A DNA stretch of 64,000 bases from Leifsonia psychrotolerans (lineage in GTDB: Bacteria > Actinomycetota > Actinomycetes > Actinomycetales > Microbacteriaceae), in NCBI RefSeq assembly GCF_013410665.1, contig NZ_JACCFM010000001.1, forward strand, positions 2,542,001 through 2,606,000, in the 5' to 3' direction. Below are positions 12,296 to 24,167 of the stretch, piece after piece. Each line of letters begins with the position of its first letter. Positions within the stretch are counted from its first letter, which is position 1. The position numbers were made by a program, and so were the translations under genes. Under the pieces are notes generated by a model. That model worked only from the letters and a program-made list of their open reading frames with translations. It was not told the origin of the DNA and ran no database searches.

Positions 12296-14755
12296 TTATG
12301 CGCCCTGGTCGTGTCTCGCGAGCCACCCCGCGAGGTGCTCCGCCGTCGCGCCCCTGCCGCTCGCGATGGTGCGCGGGGTGCCGGATGCGACAACCTGGCC
12401 GCCCGCGTTTCCACCGCCCGGACCCAAATCGATCACCCAGTCGCAGTCGGTGATTGTGGCCAGGTCGTGCTCGATGAGAACCACCGTATTGCCGGCCTCC
12501 ACCAGTCGTTGCAGCTGATCGAGCAACAACCGGATGTCGGCCGGGTGCAGGCCCGCGGTTGGCTCATCGAGCAGGTAGAGCGTATGCCCGCGGTGGGCCC
12601 GCTGCAGCTCGGTGGCCAGCTTGATGCGCTGTGCCTCTCCGCCGCTGAGCTCGGTCGCCGGCTGGCCAAGACGGAGGTAGCCGAGCCCGACATCCCGGAG
12701 CGTCTCCAGGCTGCGAGACGCCGCGGGAACATCGGCGAAGAAGTCGGCGGCCGCGTCGACCGTCATCGCCAGCACATCGGCGATGGTCTTTCCGCGCGAG
12801 GTCACCTCGAGCGTCTCGGCGTTGTAGCGCGCTCCGTGACAGGTGCGACAGGGCGCGTAGGTGCCGGGCAGAAAGAGTAATTCGACCGACACGAAGCCTT
12901 CACCCTGACAGGTCTCGCAGCGCCCACCGGCGACGTTGAACGAAAATCGCCCTGCGGTGTAGCCACGGGCCTTCGCCAGATCGGTGGCCGCAAAGATTTT
13001 GCGCACACCGTCGAACATGCCGGTGTATGTGGCGAGGTTGGAGCGCGGGGTGCGGCCGATGGGACGTTGGTCGACCACCACCAGCCGATCAAACGTTTCC
13101 ACTCCCGACACCCCCGCCACGTCGACCTCGAGCACCGCGTCATCCGGCCCCTCGGCTGCCGTGCCGAGATGACCGCGCACCACATGCGCGAGCACCTGGG
13201 TCACGAGCGTCGACTTGCCCGATCCCGAGACGCCGGTGACAGCTGTCATCACACCGAGAGGAACCTCGACGGATGTCTCCCGGAGATTGTGCCGAGTGAC
13301 CCCGCGCAGACGCAACCAGCCCTGCGGGGTTCGCGGCTCGTGAACGGCCATCGCCGAGCGCGGAAAAAGGTAGCGGCCGGTGACCGAGTCTGCAACCTCC
13401 CGGAGCCCCTCGACCGGTCCGGAATAGAGCACCTGCCCGCCACCGTCGCCGGCCCCGGGTCCGATGTCCACGACCCAGTCGGCCCGGCGCACGACATCGA
13501 GGTCGTGTTCGACGACGAACAGAGAATTGCCCGACGCGATCAGGCGTTCCAGAACGTCGAGCAGCGGCCGCGCATCGGCCGGATGCAGCCCCGCGGATGG
13601 TTCGTCGAGCACATAGACAACGCCGAAGAGCCCGGAGCGCAGTTGCGTGGCGATGCGCAATCGCTGTGATTCACCGGGGGACAGCGTGGTGGAGTTGCGC
13701 CCCAGGCTCAGGTAGCCGAGGCCGAGATCGAGCAGCACCTCAACCCGCGCGATCACGTCGGCGGCGATTCGACTGGCGGCCTCGCTGCCCTCCGCTGCGG
13801 ATGCCACGGCTCCCGCCTCGACACCGGTTCGCAACTCCCCCGCGAGTTCGGCCAGCGGCACCGCGTTCATGTCGGCGATCGTGCGCCCGGCGAACGTGAC
13901 GGCCAGTGCCTCCGCACGCAGGCCGCTGCCGTCGCAATCGGGACAGGCGATGCTCTGAACGAAGCGAAGTGCGCGCTCGCGCATCCGCTCACTCTGGGAC
14001 TCTGAAAGCACATGCATGACGTGCTTGCGTGCGCTCCAAAACTTTCCGTAGTAGCCGTGATCGATGCGGCCGGCCTCGGGTTCGATCAGCACGGAGGGCT
14101 GCTCCTCGGTGTACAGCAACCAGTCCCGGTCGGCGCGCGGCAACGACGTCCACGGTGTGTCGATGTCGATCCCGAGGCCGCGCACGATACTGCGCAGGTT
14201 CGCTCCCTGCCACGCTCCCGGCCAGGCGGCAATCGCCCCGTCGCGAATGCTCAACGCCGTGTTGGGAACCAGCAGCTCCTCGGTGACGTCGTGCACTACT
14301 CCGAGCCCCTGGCAGCGCGCGCAGGCCCCGGCCGCGGTGTTCGGCGAGAATGCCTCGGCGGCGAGGTGCGTCGCGCCCGGCTGATACGTTCCGGCCCGGG
14401 AATAGAGCATGCGGAGCAGATTGGACAGCGTTGTGAGTGTGCCGACGGTCGAGCGCGAACTCGGCGCTCCGCGGCGCTGCTGCAGTGCAACGGCCGGGGG
14501 CAGCCCGGTGATTTCCCCCACCTCCGGAGCGCCGACCTGATTCAGCAGTCGTCGTGCGTAGGGCGCGACCGATTCAAAATAGCGTCGTTGTGCCTCGGCA
14601 TACAGGGTGCCGAACGCCAGCGAGGACTTGCCCGACCCTGACACACCGGTGAAGGCCACCATGCAGTCGCGGGGAATATCGATGTCGACATTCTTGAGGT
14701 TGTGCTCTCGAGCGCCGCGAACGCGCACCCAACCGTCCACGTCGCCGCGGGTCAC
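12296..14755 (-). CDS. Short UvrA-family ABC ATPase (UvrA2-like)
   Basis: The 819-residue protein has two ABC ATPase units like UvrA, the damage-binding subunit of nucleotide excision repair. Walker A motifs are [13 protein letters not shown] (about 35-47) and [13 protein letters not shown]. Signature motifs are [12 protein letters not shown] and [12 protein letters not shown]. Zinc-module pairs are visible as [24 protein letters not shown] and [10 protein letters not shown]. Canonical UvrA is about 940-970 residues; the missing length matches the UvrB-binding part, as in UvrA2/DrrC-type proteins linked to drug tolerance. Its GTG start overlaps the stop of the upstream DUF2236 gene (GTGA), so the two are coupled. 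The specific substrate is unknown. Confidence 0.9.
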
Positions 14756-17348: not shown

Positions 17349-17453
17349 GGGTCATGTTAACTCGCGACCGCCCGCTTTCGGTAGGTCTGAGTGTCGGGAG
17401 TATCGTCGCAGCAGGGTAGAGCTCAGGCCTGCCGGGCCAGCGGAGGGACACCA

Positions 17454-18740
17454 ATGACCGACCACCTTGAACCGCCTGGGGGCGAACCCTCGTCACCTCC
17501 GGACGGCGACGACGACGACGAACGCTGGCTGACCGCCGGGGTGGGAAGCGTTGCCGCGGCGAGCTTCTTCTCGGACTCGGGCCATGAAATCGCGACCGCT
17601 GTGCTGCCGAGCTTTCTCACGAGTGTTCTCCATGGGTCGGCTGCGGCGTTGGGCCTGATCGAGGGGGTGAGCGATGCCCTCGCCGGCGTCGCAAAACTGA
17701 TCGGGGGCCCGCTGGCCAACGATCCGAAACGGCGTCAGGCCATCGCGACCGGGGGCTATCTGGGCACCGCAGTTGCAACGGCGGCGATCGGATTGGCCGC
17801 GGCCGTGTGGCAGGTGGGGGTGCTTCGCGCCATCGCGTGGGTGTCGCGCGGCCTTCGGTCCCCCGCGCGTGACACACTTCTTTCATCCCTTGCCCAGACT
17901 CGCGCGTATGGCCGCGCATTCGGCCTCGAGCGCGCAGGTGACAACCTCGGCGCCGTGGTGGGGCCGTTGGCCGCCGCGGGCCTGGTGGCCTGGCTGGGTA
18001 TTCGCCCGGCGATCTGGTTCGCCCTGATCCCTGGCGCGCTGGCGGCCGTGGCGATCACCGTTGCGGCCAGGGAGGCTCGCCGTCACCACCTGCCAGGGGC
18101 CCGGCAACGCATCCGGCTGGACTTCGCCGGATTGCGCTCGGCCGGACTACTCCGCCCGCTGATTCCGGTGATCCTGTTTGAATGCGGCAACATCGCCACC
18201 ACCATGCTGATCCTCCGTTCGACGCAGTTGCTCCAGGTCGATGGCCGGAGCGCCGCGACGGCGGCGTCGTTGGCAATCCTGATCTACGCCGCGCACAATG
18301 CCGCTGGCGCGATCGTGGCCTATTTTGGCGGTCGCTGGATCGACCGGTCAGGGCCGCGGATCGTTTTCGCGGCCGGCGCCGTGCTGTACGTGGTCGCCTA
18401 CGTCGGATTCGCGTGGGCGCCGTCTGAGTGGTGGTTTCTCGTGATCGTGTTCAGCTTGGCCGGTGCCGGCATCGGATTGGCGGAAACGGCGGAATCCACC
18501 CTGGTGGCCCAGATCCTCCCTGACCGGCTGCGCGGGAGCGGATTCGGCGTCATCGGAGCAGTTCAAGCCGGCGGCAATTTGGTCGGAACCGTCGTCGTAG
18601 GGGTGCTCTACACGGTGGTGTCGCCCACCGCAGGCTTCATCTACGCGGCAGCCTGGATGGCATTGTCGGTAGTGACCGCGGCGTGGCTTCGAGGCCATCG
18701 CCCGCAGCCGGCTGTCGAGCCGGACGCTCAGCTCTCGTAG
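17454..18740 (+). CDS. MFS transporter
   Basis: The 428-residue protein has an acidic cytosolic N-terminus (a run of Asp at about 20-24) and then about twelve transmembrane helices in two halves. It is a major facilitator. Loop motifs include a [19 protein letters not shown] stretch between helices 2 and 3 and [14 protein letters not shown] in the second half. The ATG at 17454 follows a strong GGAGGG site; the longer frame from 17391 is not favoured. Its 3' end overlaps the stop region of the convergent ppa gene by 13 bases. Substrate unknown; an efflux role is possible. Confidence 0.85.
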
Positions 18741-19228
18741 CTGTCGTTCGCACGGTACGCGTGCACAGCCGCCGTCACCGTGCGTTCCGCTTCATCACGC
18801 GAACCGAAGCCGTGCACCGTCACGAACTTTCCGGGCTCCAGATCCTTGTAATGCTGAAAGAAATGTTGGATCTCGTGGCGCAGATTGACGGAGACATCGT
18901 CCAATTCACGGATGTCGGCCCAGCGGGGATCCGATGCGGGCACCGTGATGATCTTGGCGTCGGGGCCCTTTTCGTCGGTCATCCGAAAGACCCCCACCAC
19001 TCGTACCGCCACGACCACACCAGGAAACGTCGGCTCGTCCAGGAGCACGAGGGCATCCAACGGGTCGCTGTCTTCACTGAGGGTGTGCTCGATGAAGCCG
19101 TAGTCGGCTGGGTAGGTCATCGCGGTGAACAGTGTGCGGTCCAAGCGCATGCGTCCAGTCGCATGGTCGACCTCATACTTGTTGCGGCCTCCACGCGGAA
19201 TCTCAATCGTGACGTCGAGTGTGGTCAT
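18728..19228 (-). CDS. ppa: Inorganic pyrophosphatase
   Basis: The 166-residue family I enzyme hydrolyses pyrophosphate to two phosphates, pulling biosynthetic reactions forward. The metal-binding signature [11 protein letters not shown] is present, as are the [14 protein letters not shown] start and [12 protein letters not shown]. The ATG at 19228 has AGGAG upstream; the longer frame to 19270 is rejected because the family starts here. Its upstream region shares a 17-base block and a GCT(A/G)ATGG block with the enolase gene 4.8 kb away, both at almost the same distance from the start. It is divergent from the MutS-like pair. Soluble, probably hexameric as is usual for the bacterial family. 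Confidence 0.94.
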
Positions 19229-19260
19229 CGCCTTCTCCTGTCTCATCACCGAGCAAGGAA

Positions 19261-19315
19261 CCATCAGCACTCAGTGCGGTTCGGGTGACACGTACCCGGG
19301 CGGGATCCATCGCCA
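19261..19315 (-). promoter_or_regulatory. ppa upstream element shared with eno
   Basis: Read on the minus strand, TGGCGATGGATCCCGCC (19299-19315) is identical to a block upstream of the enolase gene. GCTGATGG (19261-19268) lies 33 bases before the ppa ATG, exactly as GCTAATGG does for eno. This is probably a promoter region with a common control site; the sigma factor or regulator is unknown. Confidence 0.55.
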
Positions 19316-19355: not shown

Positions 19356-19446
19356 CAAATGAGAGTGACTGTTCGAAGCCCAAGCCCCTGCCCGCACCGA
19401 CGGTCGCGAGGGTTGTAGTTGGCTCCGAGCCGGAACATACTGAGGG

Positions 19447-19489
19447 TGGCGATGAGGCTCGCCACAACCGCGGATATTGCCGCTAATGG
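19447..19489 (+). promoter_or_regulatory. Upstream element of the MutS-like operon, related to that of ppa/eno
   Basis: TGGCGATGAGGCTCGCC (19447-19463) matches the ppa/eno block at 13 of 17 bases, and GCTAATGG (19482-19489) matches exactly the enolase version. The distance from the first block to the start codon (about 79 bases) is close to those of eno (77) and ppa (71). Confidence 0.4.
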
Positions 19490-19541
19490 CCTCTACCTGA
19501 GAGCACTCGACGTGACGTCGAGGCTCAGGTGGAGGAGGTAG

Positions 19542-21116
19542 ATGATGAGCCAGACGGCCACACGGCCCACCGTTTCCGCGGTGACATCGCCCAGCATCCT
19601 TTTCGTCAACGGCGAGAACGAAATGCCCAGACTCACGCTCGTCGCACCGGCCTGTTTCGCGGACCTGAACCTCGACCAGATCGTCGAGGCGATCACGGCG
19701 GGCCGAGAGGAATACGATCTCAAACCATTCTTTTACACTCCACTGACCACGGTCGATGCGCTTCAATATCGGCATGAGGTTCTGCGCGATCTCGAAAGTG
19801 ACGAACTGCTCGGGAGCGTCGGACGCTTCGCACACCTGATGCGGGAGATCCGAAAATACGCGCTCCAGGCCGACAAGCTTCGCGTCGCGCATCAGAAGGA
19901 ACGCTGGATTCTTGATGCAGTGCAGCTTTATGACCGCGCGGTGCGCAGCCTGGCCGAGGACCTCGACGCCGCGAATGTTCAGTCGCGAGGTCTTTCGGAG
20001 TTCCGGGACTACCTCGTCGCATACCTGCAGTCGTCGAGTTACGTTTCGATGGTTGAGGAGGCCGCTCGCCTCATTCGCGAACTCTCCGCCATCCGCTATT
20101 GCGTGCAGATTCGTGGAAACCGTGTGCAGGTCACACCGTACGAATCGGAAATCGACTACGGCGCAGAGGTCGAGTCGACGTTTGAGAAGTTCAAGCAGGG
20201 CGGGGTCGCGGGTCACCTCGTCGCGTTTCCCAACTGGGTAGAAATGAATCATGTTGAGGCAGACATTCTGAGCTTCGTGGCCTCGTTGAACCCTGACACC
20301 TTCCACGCCGTCGCGAGTTTTTGCGCCCAGCACTCCTCCTATGTCGACCGGGCCATCGCCAGTTTCGACCGGGAGATCCAGTTCTACGTCGCCTACCGCG
20401 CCTACACCGACATCTTCGTATCGGCCGGATTGCCTGTGTGCTATCCCGAGGTCGTAGACCGATCGACTGCACTCTCCGCACACGCGGTGTTCGACCTGGC
20501 GTTGGCCACGAAGCTCATCCCCACGCGTCGCGAGGTCGTGTGCAACGATTTCGCGCTCGTCGGGGCGGAACGCATTCTCGTGGTCTCCGGCGCGAACCAG
20601 GGTGGCAAAACGACCTTCGCCCGAGCATTCGGACAGGTTCACTACCTGGCAGCCCTGGGTTGCACCGTTCCCGGCCGCGACGCACACCTCACCTTGTTCG
20701 ATGACCTCCTCACCCACTTCGAGAAGGAGGAAGACCTGCACGGTCTCAGCGGAAAGCTTGAAGATGATCTTCTGCGCATCCGCGACATTCTCGACCGGGC
20801 CACCGAGCGCAGTATCGTCATCATGAACGAAATCTTCACCTCGACGACGCTCGACGACGCCGTCTTCCTCGGCACCGAGATCATGAAACGGATCATCCAC
20901 CGCGGTGCGGTCTGCGTGTGCGTCACCTTCGTCGACGAGCTGTCATCGCTCGACCCATCAGTCGTGAGCATGGTTGCGCAAGTCGACCCGAACGACCCGG
21001 TCGCTCGAACCTTCTCGATCGTCAGGAAACCGGCCGATGGGCTTGCCTATGCCGCAGCAATCGCCCGAAAGTACGGGCTCACCTACGACAGCCTGATGGA
21101 ACGGATCTCCTCATGA
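19542..21116 (+). CDS. MutS-like ATPase A of a tandem pair
   Basis: The 524-residue protein contains the core/lever (MutS III) and ATPase (MutS V) regions of the MutS superfamily but not the N-terminal mismatch-reading domain. Helical lever regions fill about 40-330. Walker A GANQGGKT is at 350-357, and the Walker B region is IVIMNEIFTSTTLDD, with Asn429-Glu430 where canonical MutS has Asp-Glu. A possible switch segment VCVCVTFVDEL follows. A strong GGAGGAGG site precedes two adjacent ATGs (19542, 19545). Its stop overlaps the start of the second MutS-like gene (ATGA). The likely role is nucleotide-driven clamp or translocase action on DNA or RNA, not classic mismatch repair (inference). Confidence 0.85.
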   Translation: MMSQTATRPTVSAVTSPSILFVNGENEMPRLTLVAPACFADLNLDQIVEAITAGREEYDLKPFFYTPLTTVDALQYRHEVLRDLESDELLGSVGRFAHLMREIRKYALQADKLRVAHQKERWILDAVQLYDRAVRSLAEDLDAANVQSRGLSEFRDYLVAYLQSSSYVSMVEEAARLIRELSAIRYCVQIRGNRVQVTPYESEIDYGAEVESTFEKFKQGGVAGHLVAFPNWVEMNHVEADILSFVASLNPDTFHAVASFCAQHSSYVDRAIASFDREIQFYVAYRAYTDIFVSAGLPVCYPEVVDRSTALSAHAVFDLALATKLIPTRREVVCNDFALVGAERILVVSGANQGGKTTFARAFGQVHYLAALGCTVPGRDAHLTLFDDLLTHFEKEEDLHGLSGKLEDDLLRIRDILDRATERSIVIMNEIFTSTTLDDAVFLGTEIMKRIIHRGAVCVCVTFVDELSSLDPSVVSMVAQVDPNDPVARTFSIVRKPADGLAYAAAIARKYGLTYDSLMERISS

Positions 21117-22633
21117 AGGCATACCTGATGTACCGGGATGCGGATTTCGACCTCCACGCGGCCGTTCCCTCACAGGCCGAATCGCTCGTACAGGACCTGA
21201 ACCTCAACACTCTGGTCGCCGCTATGGCCGCCGGTGACGCGTTCCTCTTCGACGTGGCTCGCGAAGCGCTTCTCACGAGTTGCCACGACGTCGAATCCAT
21301 CACGTTCCGTCAGGATGTACTCCGTGACGCTTTCGCACAGGAGTCGGTCGTCAGAGAAATTTATGACCTCGCCGTGGAGGCTCTAGCTCGCGAGAAGAAG
21401 ATCTACAGCTGGGCGTTCACGTCGCCCGACAGCATCCTTCGCCGCTCGGTTGAGGTGTTGGAGATGTTCGTGAGCCTGCTGCGACGGTTGAGGAGAATCG
21501 CCGGCGAGCACCGCGACGCTTTCCATTCCGCGGGCTTCACCCGTTTCTTCAGCATGTTAGAGGAGGAGCTGAGTGACGACTATTTCGAGGAAATCGAAAC
21601 CCATCTCAAAACCCTGACCTTTCGAAATGGTGTGCTTCTCAGTTCCGGACTCGGCCAGGGGAACAAAGCAAAAGCGTACGTGTTGCGCCTGCCCCTGAAT
21701 CCGAATCCGAGCTGGCTGCAACGGCTCAGGATGCTCACGCACTCTCCACTCACCCTCACGATCGCCGACCGCGACGAGGCCGGTCACGACGCGCTGCGGG
21801 AACTGCGGGGCCGCGGTATCAACCTCGCTGCGGATGCACTGGCGAAATCGACGGATCACATCCTCAGCTTCTTCAGCATGCTGCGCTGTGATCTCGCGTT
21901 CTACATCGGCTGCCTCAACCTCAACCAGCGACTCACGTCGCTCGGGGAGCCTCTCTGCTTTCCTGTTCCGCTCCCGGCGGAGGCCGGCCCGTTCACGCTG
22001 AACTGTGACGAACTCTACGACGTGTGCCTCGCCCTGTACGCCGGAGCACACGCCGTCGGCAATGACATCACGGCCGACAGCACTCCACTGGTTGTGATCA
22101 CGGGCGCCAACCAAGGAGGCAAATCGACGTTCCTGCGCAGCGTTGGTTTAGCCCAGTTGATGCTGCAGTGTGGCATGGTGGTCCCCGCTGCGCGGTTCAC
22201 CGCGAGTGTTCGCTCCGGGATCTTCACGCACTTCAAACGCGAGGAGGATGCCGGCATGGAAAGCGGGAAGCTCGACGAGGAGCTCAGCCGGATGAGCGAC
22301 ATCGCCGGCGCGGTCTCCGCAGACGGGCTGGTGCTGTTCAACGAGTCGTTTGCGTCTACCAGCGCACGAGAAGGCTCGGAGATCGCGACCAACATCGTTC
22401 ACGCACTGGTGAACTCTGGTGTCGCCGTGTTCTTCGTCACACATCTCTACGACTTCGCACACGCCCTCTTCACCGAGGATGAAAACGCGTCTCTCTTCCT
22501 CCGTGCAGATCGTGAGTCCGACCGCCGACGAACCTTCAAGCTTGTCAAGGGTGAACCGCTCCCGACCAGCTTTGGCCAGGACGTGTACCAGCGGATCTTC
22601 GCAGCCGCGCCAGGTATCGACGTGGCGAACTGA
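21113..22633 (+). CDS. MutS-like ATPase B of a tandem pair
   Basis: The 506-residue protein is a paralogue of its upstream neighbour: the N-terminal parts align (QDLNLNTLVAAMAAGDAFLF against ADLNLDQIVEAITAGREEYD). It carries Walker A GANQGGKST at 331-339 and a Walker B region LVLFNESFASTSAREGSE, again with Asn-Glu (410-411). VAVFFVTHLYDFAHA holds the conserved TH of MutS ATPases, which protein A lacks at that place (VTFVDEL). It has no mismatch-binding domain. The ATG at 21113 overlaps the stop of the first gene. Coupled paralogues suggest an obligate heterodimer, like MSH4-MSH5. It converges on the enolase gene across a 33-base gap. Confidence 0.85.
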   Translation: MKAYLMYRDADFDLHAAVPSQAESLVQDLNLNTLVAAMAAGDAFLFDVAREALLTSCHDVESITFRQDVLRDAFAQESVVREIYDLAVEALAREKKIYSWAFTSPDSILRRSVEVLEMFVSLLRRLRRIAGEHRDAFHSAGFTRFFSMLEEELSDDYFEEIETHLKTLTFRNGVLLSSGLGQGNKAKAYVLRLPLNPNPSWLQRLRMLTHSPLTLTIADRDEAGHDALRELRGRGINLAADALAKSTDHILSFFSMLRCDLAFYIGCLNLNQRLTSLGEPLCFPVPLPAEAGPFTLNCDELYDVCLALYAGAHAVGNDITADSTPLVVITGANQGGKSTFLRSVGLAQLMLQCGMVVPAARFTASVRSGIFTHFKREEDAGMESGKLDEELSRMSDIAGAVSADGLVLFNESFASTSAREGSEIATNIVHALVNSGVAVFFVTHLYDFAHALFTEDENASLFLRADRESDRRRTFKLVKGEPLPTSFGQDVYQRIFAAAPGIDVAN

Positions 22634-22666: not shown

Positions 22667-23998
22667 TCAATACAGGCCGTACGGGACCTCCGCCTGGGAG
22701 CGGGCGATCTCGGCGAGCCGGTTGTATTTGCCGACGCGTTCACCCCGTGCGGGCGCCCCGGATTTGATCTGGCCCACCCCGGCGCCAACCGCCAGGTCAG
22801 CAATGAAGGTGTCGAGGGTCTCCCCCGAGCGATGGGAGATCATGCATGTCATACCGTTCTCTCGGGCCACCCGAATCGCCTCAAACGTTTGGGTGACAGT
22901 GCCAATCTGGTTCGGTTTGATCAGAACGGAGTTCGAGAGGTGATCCGCTGCGCCGGCCGCGATTCGCATCGGGTCGGTGACATAGAGGTCATCACCCACG
23001 AGCTGAATCCGATCACCCAAACGTGAATACTGCGCAACCCAACCGGGGATGTCGTCCTCGGCGAATCCGTCTTCGATGCTCCAAATGGGGTACGTGTCGA
23101 CGAGCCGCACGTAGTAGTCGAGCAACTCGTCCGTGGACACGGCCCCCCTCGGCAATTCATACCCGGGGTCGGCTCGGAAGCCGTTGGCGGCTGGGTCGAG
23201 GGCGATCGCCACCTGGTCGGTCGACGCTGTATAACCGGCGTCGGAGATCGCGGCAATGAGCAGATCTAAGGCCTGCTCCGGCTGCGCGATCGGTGGGGCA
23301 AACCCGCCCTCATCACCCAGCCCCGCAGTACCGAACTGGCGCTTCACCCGGAAGGCGAGCGCGTGATAGATCTCGGCCCCCCATTCCAGCGCATTCTCAA
23401 ACGTGCCGGCGCCGATGGGGGCAATCATGAACTCCTGAAAAACGAGGTCGTTCGAGGCATGGGCGCCACCGTTGAGCACATTGAAATGCGGCACCGGGAG
23501 GCGTTCCAGGCTGTGGGTCTGGGAGGCGATCCAGGTGTGCAACGGAATTCGGTCCAGCGCGGCGAACCCACGAGCGGCCGCCATCGACAGCCCAACGATG
23601 GTGTTGCCGCCCAAACGAGACAGGGTCTCCGTGCCGTCCAACTCGCGCATCGCCGCATCCAGATCGGCCAGCGACGGCCACGAACGGCCGGTGAGCAACG
23701 TGGCGAGCTCCCCCTCCGCGGCGGCGACCGCCTGACGCACACCCCGCCCTCCGAAAGGGCCCCCGCCATCACGCAACTCGACGGCTTCATGGGCACCGGT
23801 CGATGCGCCGGCCGGAGTTGCAGCTTCAACGCTGCCACCGCCCTCGAGGTGCAGGGTCACCTGGATTGTGGGATACCCGCGGGAGTCCAAAATCTGCCGC
23901 GCCTGCACCTGCGAAATGTTCAGCTGTATCACGTCAGCGGGCGTGACGACGTCGTCACTCGGCGGCCGCTGGGGATCGTGGTTGACGTGGGCGTTCAT
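22667..23998 (-). CDS. eno: Enolase, divergent paralogue
   Basis: The 443-residue enzyme interconverts 2-phosphoglycerate and phosphoenolpyruvate. Visible parts are ARQILDSRGYPTIQVTL, the loop PAGASTGAHEAVELRD, HFNVLNGGAHASNDL, GDEGGFAPP, SIEDGF with Glu and Asp metal ligands, the signature VLIKPNQIGTVTQT with the catalytic Lys, and SHRSGE. Compared with typical enolases it has a 25-residue His/Pro/Asp-rich N-terminal extension and AATPAGAS in place of the usual VPSGAS. The ATG at 23998 follows AAGGAG. The divergence suggests a second enolase besides the housekeeping copy elsewhere (inference). Its promoter shares elements with ppa. Confidence 0.9.
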   Translation of the reverse strand: MNAHVNHDPQRPPSDDVVTPADVIQLNISQVQARQILDSRGYPTIQVTLHLEGGGSVEAATPAGASTGAHEAVELRDGGGPFGGRGVRQAVAAAEGELATLLTGRSWPSLADLDAAMRELDGTETLSRLGGNTIVGLSMAAARGFAALDRIPLHTWIASQTHSLERLPVPHFNVLNGGAHASNDLVFQEFMIAPIGAGTFENALEWGAEIYHALAFRVKRQFGTAGLGDEGGFAPPIAQPEQALDLLIAAISDAGYTASTDQVAIALDPAANGFRADPGYELPRGAVSTDELLDYYVRLVDTYPIWSIEDGFAEDDIPGWVAQYSRLGDRIQLVGDDLYVTDPMRIAAGAADHLSNSVLIKPNQIGTVTQTFEAIRVARENGMTCMISHRSGETLDTFIADLAVGAGVGQIKSGAPARGERVGKYNRLAEIARSQAEVPYGLY

Positions 23999-24030
23999 GA
24001 TTCTCCTTGTTGTGCAATCAAGGTAGGAAA

Positions 24031-24091
24031 CCATTAGCGTGCGGTGCAGTGCGAACATCACGAGTTGACGTTCAGGCGGGATCCATCGCCA
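24031..24091 (-). promoter_or_regulatory. eno upstream element shared with ppa
   Basis: On the minus strand, TGGCGATGGATCCCGCC (24075-24091) and GCTAATGG (24031-24038, 33 bases before the ATG) match the ppa upstream region in sequence and layout. The 17-base block is identical. A common regulator or a duplicated promoter is likely. Confidence 0.55.
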
Positions 24092-24167
24092 ATTTAAGAA
24101 TACTCAGTCGCGCCTGTTCCACAACGGATCCGTAGAGACCGGGCGCCACTATCGGCACCGGCAAGCC

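Follow-up and report, generated by a model that had tools for sequence, protein, structure and literature searches.

A MutS4 gene pair behind a fluoride riboswitch in Leifsonia psychrotolerans probably belongs to a fluoride-stress module

In a 64,000-nucleotide (nt) stretch of the Leifsonia psychrotolerans genome (contig NZ_JACCFM010000001.1, positions 2,542,001 to 2,606,000 of the forward strand; hereafter the window), two overlapping genes encode MutS-type ATPases that fit the published features of MutS4A and MutS4B. We propose that this pair, MutS4AB, belongs to a fluoride-stress module: its leader carries a fluoride riboswitch, spare genes for inorganic pyrophosphatase (ppa) and enolase (eno) with weaker riboswitch matches lie on either side, and the pair keeps such company in many phyla. 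It is very probable that the pair has a role in the response to fluoride rather than as a mismatch-repair clamp. An earlier interpretation of this DNA from its letters alone (the sequence-only reading) had taken the surroundings for a module without a recognised purpose; the riboswitches ahead of the pair, and the fluoride-resistance genes with which it travels, point to fluoride instead.

The MutS4 operon is preceded by a fluoride riboswitch

The operon and its leader comprise the following elements, with scores for the fluoride riboswitch taken from the Rfam model RF01734:

19542..21116, + strand: MutS4A, 524 amino acids, Walker A intact, Phe463 at the position of the His in MutS4B
21113..22633, + strand: MutS4B, 506 amino acids, Walker A intact, His444, 4-nt overlap with MutS4A
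19439..19502, + strand: fluoride riboswitch aptamer in the operon leader, 41.7 bits (gathering cut-off 34), 39 nt before the MutS4A start codon
19454-19459 with 19488-19493, + strand: strands of the aptamer pseudoknot, from an alignment with pseudoknot covariation
19490..19535 (19490-19500 with 19525-19535), + strand: predicted hairpin hiding the GGAGG before the MutS4A start, from the leader fold, with switching inferred

The leader of MutS4A was more stable than 200 of 200 shuffled versions (z -4.66). Four bases of the predicted hairpin (19490-19493) are also part of a pseudoknot strand, so the two structures should exclude each other and fluoride is therefore predicted to expose the ribosome-binding site. 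When RF01734 was run over the whole 3.82-Mb genome at E <=1, with 150 of 512 first-look candidates scored, exactly three matches were obtained, ahead of MutS4A, ppa and eno. A search for consensus promoters and terminators found none and two, respectively, fewer than in shuffled sequences.

We assembled 90 MutS4 loci, namely the best 80 of at least 557 confirmed candidates from a scan of species genomes with a MutS4B alignment, nine from phylum-sample genomes and the window. A riboswitch model (R1) was built from eight Rfam matches in three sources and a second (R2) from 99 R1 matches; 146 of the 158 R2 matches were mapped, the 12 omitted being weaker than E 0.0015. The leader was untestable in seven loci, five short of upstream sequence and two without MutS4A, and leader distances were measured, by extrapolation, to the place matching the start codon in the window. 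A same-strand riboswitch lay within 300 nt ahead of MutS4A in 41 of the 83 testable loci, with a score of at least 30 bits in 33 cases; the 41 include nine named phyla. The riboswitch was found 300-2500 nt ahead in a further 20 testable loci and was absent from 22, while 72 of the 90 loci held one somewhere. The riboswitch alignment showed two-sided changes in four of six pseudoknot pairs. Because R2 finds its own training set again, we checked the result against Rfam. The RF01734 model exceeded its gathering cut-off in three of four sources (none in L080), in six of six loci (directly ahead of MutS4A in L048 and L107 only) and in three of three plasmid stretches (directly ahead of MutS4A in L181 only).

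Other MutS-family genes served as controls. No R2 match was obtained at 21 MutS1, MutS2 or KamC loci of MutS4-carrying genomes, 19 of which had at least 150 nt of upstream sequence; ten were typed by NCBIfam (five MutS2, four MutS1, one KamC) and the rest by length and motif only. A set of 18 MutS loci other than MutS4 yielded one partial match of 12.6 bits and forms a weak control, since in 11 of them the frame runs off the stretch and leaves the leader uncovered.

The association was also seen among whole genomes, with p-values that serve only as guides because the species are related. In a phylum sample of 198 genomes, RF01734 at E <=0.001 matched 9 of the 10 genomes that carry MutS4, compared with 41 of the 188 that do not (Fisher 1.9e-5, or 6.7e-5 when the window genome is left out). 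The match fell on the contig of the pair in eight of the ten carriers; in G151 it was weak and elsewhere, and G129 had none. In a class sample of 394 genomes, matches were obtained in 5 of the 11 carriers and in 20 of the 383 remaining genomes (2.4e-4, or 1.8e-3 with the window genome excluded). Fifteen hand-picked carrier genomes all had a match over the cut-off, and 56 of their 80 matches lay within 20 kb of the pair, where 0.7 were expected.

Fluoride-linked genes surround the pair

The remaining members of the module in the window are listed below:

18728..19228, - strand: inorganic pyrophosphatase (ppa), second copy, the other lying elsewhere; Pfam PF00719; start codon chosen by homology
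19256..19314, - strand: weaker fluoride riboswitch ahead of ppa; RF01734 28.1 bits, E 1.5e-4, below gathering, permissive settings
22667..23998, - strand: enolase (eno), second copy, the other lying elsewhere; Pfam Enolase_N and Enolase_C; start codon chosen by homology
24017..24099, - strand: possible fluoride riboswitch ahead of eno; RF01734 18.6 bits, E 0.18, below gathering, permissive settings
17391..18740, + strand: MFS transporter, probable module member; Pfam MFS_1; relatives in 28 of the 90 loci; no riboswitch of its own found

Fluoride is described as an inhibitor of enolase and pyrophosphatase, both of which are often under riboswitch control (PMC11139923), and the account of Enterobacter cloacae FRM places copies of the two enzymes within a fluoride operon (PMC5533749). 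We take fluoride to be the reason for the location of the pair, with ppa on one side and a spare enolase on the other, a placement that the sequence-only reading had noticed and that stands, with a second copy on each side. Unlike the MutS4A leader, those of ppa and eno are no more stably folded than shuffled sequences (z 0.76 and -0.16). Their weak riboswitch sites are backed by two other loci: in Humibacter (L114) riboswitches over the cut-off precede MutS4A, ppa and eno, and in Microbacterium (L107) RF01734 matches over gathering precede MutS4A, ppa and hycD.

Neighbours were counted as the loci of the 90 with a tblastn match at 1e-10. The most frequent were MFS transporters (33), enolase (26), a dynamin-type GTPase (21), HyfB-like (18) and DUF190 (17) proteins and an ABC ATPase (16), followed by HycE-like proteins (14), CrcB (13), a Na/H antiporter (13), a phosphoglycerate-mutase-type phosphatase (8), a P-type ATPase (8), HAD-like proteins (7), ppa of the window type (7) and CLC (3). 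The recurrence of this neighbourhood suggested by the sequence-only reading thus holds for enolase, while ppa of the window type is uncommon. A riboswitch or any of eno, ppa, CrcB, DUF190, antiporter, CLC and Hyc/Hyf was held by 78 of the 90 loci; antiporter and Hyf alone are not specific to fluoride. Several neighbours have riboswitches directly ahead of them. By cluster of open reading frames (ORFs), this was the case for hycD (10/14), the antiporter (8/13), the dynamin-type GTPase (14/25), enolase (8/25), MFS (6/33), CrcB (3/14), the phosphoglycerate-mutase type (1/9), the P-type ATPase (1/8) and DUF190 (1/24), and for no member of the hycE (0/14), HAD (0/7), ABC ATPase (0/18) and histidine kinase (0/6) clusters. 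The dynamin-type GTPase (L055:12198-14045, - strand, and relatives) is a second uncharacterised member of the regulon.

Relatives of MutS4B were found on 48 of 72,556 plasmid records. A Rhodococcus plasmid carries MutS4AB with MFS, eno, two CrcB genes, Usp and phosphatases, and an Enterobacter plasmid carries antiporter, Usp, MutS4AB, P-type ATPase, crcB, phosphoglycerate mutase and eno. On a Mycobacterium branderi plasmid, Hyc-like genes, Usp and a histidine phosphatase accompany MutS4AB, with a riboswitch (46.7 bits) just ahead of MutS4A. This island resembles that of Mycobacterium yongonense, and we therefore suspect that the M. yongonense MutS4 island is also a fluoride-resistance island. 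The M. branderi island holds another riboswitch (L181:8570-8630, + strand, 53.6 bits), followed after about 300 nt by PE/PPE and WXG100 genes.

Two further observations concern the window genome. A UvrA-like double ABC ATPase of 819 amino acids with a UvrA DNA-binding domain is encoded near the module (12296-14755, - strand). The two CrcB genes of the genome are adjacent to each other (G000:C1:586481-587241, - strand) and far from the module, with no fluoride riboswitch match reported there.

MutS4A and MutS4B are paralogous ATPases with unlike catalytic sites

The sequence-only reading had described two paralogous MutS-type ATPases of 524 and 506 residues, coupled by an ATGA overlap and without a mismatch-recognition domain, and had noted that most actinobacteria lack MutS/MutL and use NucS. 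Our searches bore out this description of the pair. Both frames lie where it had placed them and match Pfam MutS_V (60.9 and 76.2 bits; cut-off 30.2), the sole such matches reported in the 3.82-Mb genome, and a profile alignment joins the two proteins over 436 columns (E 1.1e-42). Pfam MutS_I to MutS_IV were detected at E 0.01 in 0 of 55 MutS4A and 0 of 55 MutS4B homologues, and NucS is encoded in the genome (152 bits). The helical lever regions of the sequence-only reading are putative, as sequence and profile searches detected no match between the first ~240 residues and MutS1 or MutS2/KamC profiles; alignments with these profiles start only at column 253 of MutS4A and at columns 242 and 302 of MutS4B.

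The homologue alignments used 55 of 74 MutS4A and 55 of 88 MutS4B rows, and proteins with a stop or unknown residue (MutS4B of L035 and L056; MutS4A of L044, L057 and L084) were left out of the sequence sets. Neither protein shows any variation at the Walker A Lys. Where MutS has Asp-Glu in Walker B, 55 of 55 MutS4A and 54 of 55 MutS4B sequences have Asn-Glu. The His that follows Walker B in MutS acts in the ATP switch of that protein; it is kept in 55 of 55 MutS4B sequences and is Phe in 55 of 55 MutS4A sequences. Because the genes overlap and the catalytic change is one-sided, with two unlike sites in a constant pair, it is plausible that MutS4A and MutS4B form a heterodimer in which one site is regular and the other altered. 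Protein charge was no guide to DNA binding, since MutS1 is equally acidic.

Assignment to better-known families failed. The two proteins scored 65.8 and 60.1 bits with the MutS1 model TIGR01070 (cut-off 641.7) and lack MutS_I-IV; they scored 51.9 and 66.8 bits with the MutS2 model TIGR01069 (cut-off 400), with no SMR or KOW domain found by Pfam, and 37.6 and 67.1 bits with the KamC model NF052383 (cut-off 300). A part in anti-phage defence was also rejected, as the PADLOC matches were weak (best E 0.003) and confined to the ATPase region. By its published features the pair fits MutS4A/MutS4B: adjacent MutS-type paralogues, overlap of the MutS4A stop with the MutS4B start, and an ATPase domain without a mismatch-recognition domain. 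PMC5742357 names the stop/start overlap as a signature of MutS4, a subfamily that it takes from Lin et al. 2007.

The pair is conserved as a pair and widely distributed

MutS4A adjoins MutS4B in 88 of the 90 loci, over more than 450 residues in 77 of them, so the expectation that the two are kept together was confirmed. The exceptions are L060, where 231 nt separate the start of MutS4B from the end of the contig, and L113, where MutS4B occurs without MutS4A and adjoins a HAD-like gene (L113:9170-10663, + strand). In L036 the MutS4A matches lie in two frames; in L114 the MutS4A match spans residues 294-513 only, and the Humibacter genome of that locus has a second pair. At 82 of 88 junctions, including the ATGA of the window, the two genes overlap by exactly 4 nt, which is beyond chance.

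Origins named to phylum span 16 phyla, with 20 loci from Chloroflexota, 14 each from Bacillota and Pseudomonadota, nine from Actinomycetota, three from two archaeal phyla and the rest from others; as many records are metagenome bins, single phylum assignments are unsure. MutS4B of these loci is 44-59% identical to that of the window, and by blast segment 86 of the 90 values lie between 50 and 60. So narrow a range suggests that the pair has spread horizontally. In a quick tree the nearest kin of MutS4B of the window are those of Microbacterium L107 and Humibacter L114 (Shimodaira-Hasegawa-like approximate likelihood ratio test, SH-aLRT, 96). The G+C content of ppa, MutS4A and MutS4B is 0.60-0.61, compared with 0.64-0.68 in the other nearby genes measured (eno 0.647), in keeping with acquisition.

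Discussion

From known riboswitch action, we propose that binding of Mg and fluoride would form the aptamer pseudoknot, keep the ribosome-binding site from being hidden in the hairpin and turn on translation. MutS4A and MutS4B, judged by their gene pairing, would then assemble as a heterodimer in which MutS4B, with its His, is the regular ATPase and MutS4A, with Phe, provides the altered site. Such a dimer may be an ATP-driven remodeller that closes and opens in turn and so separates enzyme complexes which fluoride, Mg and phosphate hold shut. Its targets could be enolase, pyrophosphatase or other Mg-dependent phosphotransfer enzymes, with spare enzyme copies and exporters doing the rest. Release of fluoride-trapped enzyme complexes is our leading, if tentative, candidate for what the pair acts on, favoured by the company of fluoride genes and by the example of MutS2, a MutS-type ATPase described as splitting ribosomes (PMC10897456), which gives a non-DNA target a precedent. 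In its fullest form the proposal makes MutS4AB a new fluoride-resistance factor, a 'fluoride reactivase' found in many bacterial phyla and some archaea: a riboswitch-induced, catalytically asymmetric ATPase that would use mechanical force to free enzymes, or machines with a bound nucleotide, from fluoride-magnesium-phosphate mimics of a transition state. We regard this fuller version as speculative and rather doubtful.

Several observations weigh against a fluoride role. The eno riboswitch of the window is a weak match, 6 of the 11 carriers in the class sample have no riboswitch match, and 12 of the 90 loci lack both a riboswitch and any fluoride-linked gene (five of these on contigs shorter than 6 kb). 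Seven actinobacterial pairs (L040, L041 and L172-L176; MutS4B identity 41-45%), which branch deep in a tree rooted on MutS4A, have no riboswitch or fluoride-linked gene nearby; these loci share few neighbours beyond the pair and antisense frames, none recognised as fluoride-linked. The deep pairs may have lost the fluoride link or predate it, perhaps with an older or different role. Finally, the M. yongonense MutS4 operon was reported to raise recombination in Mycobacterium smegmatis (27/36 versus 5/16 sequenced colonies; PMC5742357).

This last result speaks for a fluoride-induced DNA clamp that would bind recombination or replication intermediates in the manner of MSH4-MSH5 and protect or recombine DNA while fluoride disturbs metabolism, an idea akin to that of the sequence-only reading. 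The history of the MutS family favours it as well, as does the DNA-damaging stress suggested in the 2010 motif paper (PMC2864571). However, the recombination assay scored a gain of function in a foreign host, described with no mention of fluoride in the parts of the paper on which we draw (PMC5742357); MutS_I to MutS_IV were not detected; and inspection, by eye only, of the 45 listed ORF clusters that recur most often recognised no MutL or recombination gene. With a genomic context of fluoride riboswitches and fluoride-resistance genes, and one published assay on the side of recombination, we consider a clamp of this kind unlikely, though the strongest of the rival readings. Fluoride-metal complexes trap GTPases, and the pair might instead free ribosomes or translational GTPases from fluoride-mimic states, in the manner of MutS2, which splits ribosomes. 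Recruitment of MutS2 is attributed to its SMR and KOW domains (PMC10897456), whereas Pfam found neither in 110 members of the MutS4 set, and we judge rescue of translation to be quite improbable.

That the pair is only a passenger of mobile fluoride islands, with an unrelated function, would agree with its plasmid copies and with the deep branches that lack a fluoride link. Such a passenger would not be expected to have a riboswitch directly ahead of MutS4A in about half of the testable loci, from at least nine named phyla; this position argues that the pair is regulated as a fluoride gene rather than merely carried, and makes the passenger explanation very unlikely. Least probable by far, and rejected here, is that the pair reactivates a B12-dependent aminomutase as a KamB/KamC-type protein. 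Among the NCBIfam matches of MutS4B, KamC comes just behind MutS2 (E 1.3e-18, against 1.2e-18), and drawings of lysine-fermentation clusters include MutS-family genes (PMC3149608), but the MutS4B score falls far below the KamC cut-off, and the KamC model gives MutS2 and MutS1 proteins 181-245 bits and MutS4 at most ~80, over the ATPase only.

The sequence-only reading named a function already assigned to this clade as a ground for its own refutation, and this applies in part. MutS4A and MutS4B have been named and one mycobacterial study links them to recombination (PMC5742357), while the 2010 paper on the crcB motif listed 'DNA repair (mutS)' genes behind it (PMC2864571); the ligand of that motif was later reported to be fluoride (PMC7266159). 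A literature search, with most subscription journals outside its reach, found no paper testing MutS4 in fluoride tolerance. New here is the proposal, from sequence comparison, that the 'mutS' of the crcB motif corresponds to the MutS4 pair, both at the window locus and across phyla, along with the ppa-MutS4-eno arrangement, the asymmetry of the two proteins, the probable switch at the ribosome-binding site and the deep branch without a fluoride link. A subfamily of unsettled function is thereby tied to the puzzle of a fluoride riboswitch that controls 'mutS', and the puzzle becomes a simple test of tolerance. We further suggest that the mycobacterial island published as a driver of recombination may be a fluoride-resistance island, and that to call MutS4 proteins mismatch-repair MutS may be misleading.

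Comparison with known systems

The closest known system is MutS4A/MutS4B of M. yongonense type I, described in an island of 13 genes that also holds enolase, NADH-dehydrogenase and hydrogenase genes (PMC5742357). The window pair shares with it the adjacent paralogues, the overlap, the MutS ATPase and a neighbouring enolase gene; the published interpretation differs in being one of recombination, with no fluoride link in the parts of that account used here. Like MutS2, the pair has a MutS-type ATPase without a mismatch domain, and MutS2 acts on a non-DNA target; unlike the pair, MutS2 is a single gene of ~790 amino acids with SMR and KOW domains, and the MutS2 controls had no riboswitch. MSH4-MSH5 is likewise composed of two unlike MutS paralogues, as in the heterodimer proposed here. 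Domains III and IV, which form the clamp of MSH4-MSH5, are not detectable in MutS4A or MutS4B. KamC, named an enzyme reactivase by NCBIfam, is also a short MutS-ATPase protein, yet its model scores MutS2 and MutS1 far above MutS4. With the fluoride (crcB) riboswitch regulon of RF01734 the window shares the leader aptamer, and the loci share the companions eno, ppa, CrcB, antiporter and formate-hydrogenlyase-like genes. The known parts of that regulon are exporters, antiporters and spare enzymes, from which its MutS member differs.

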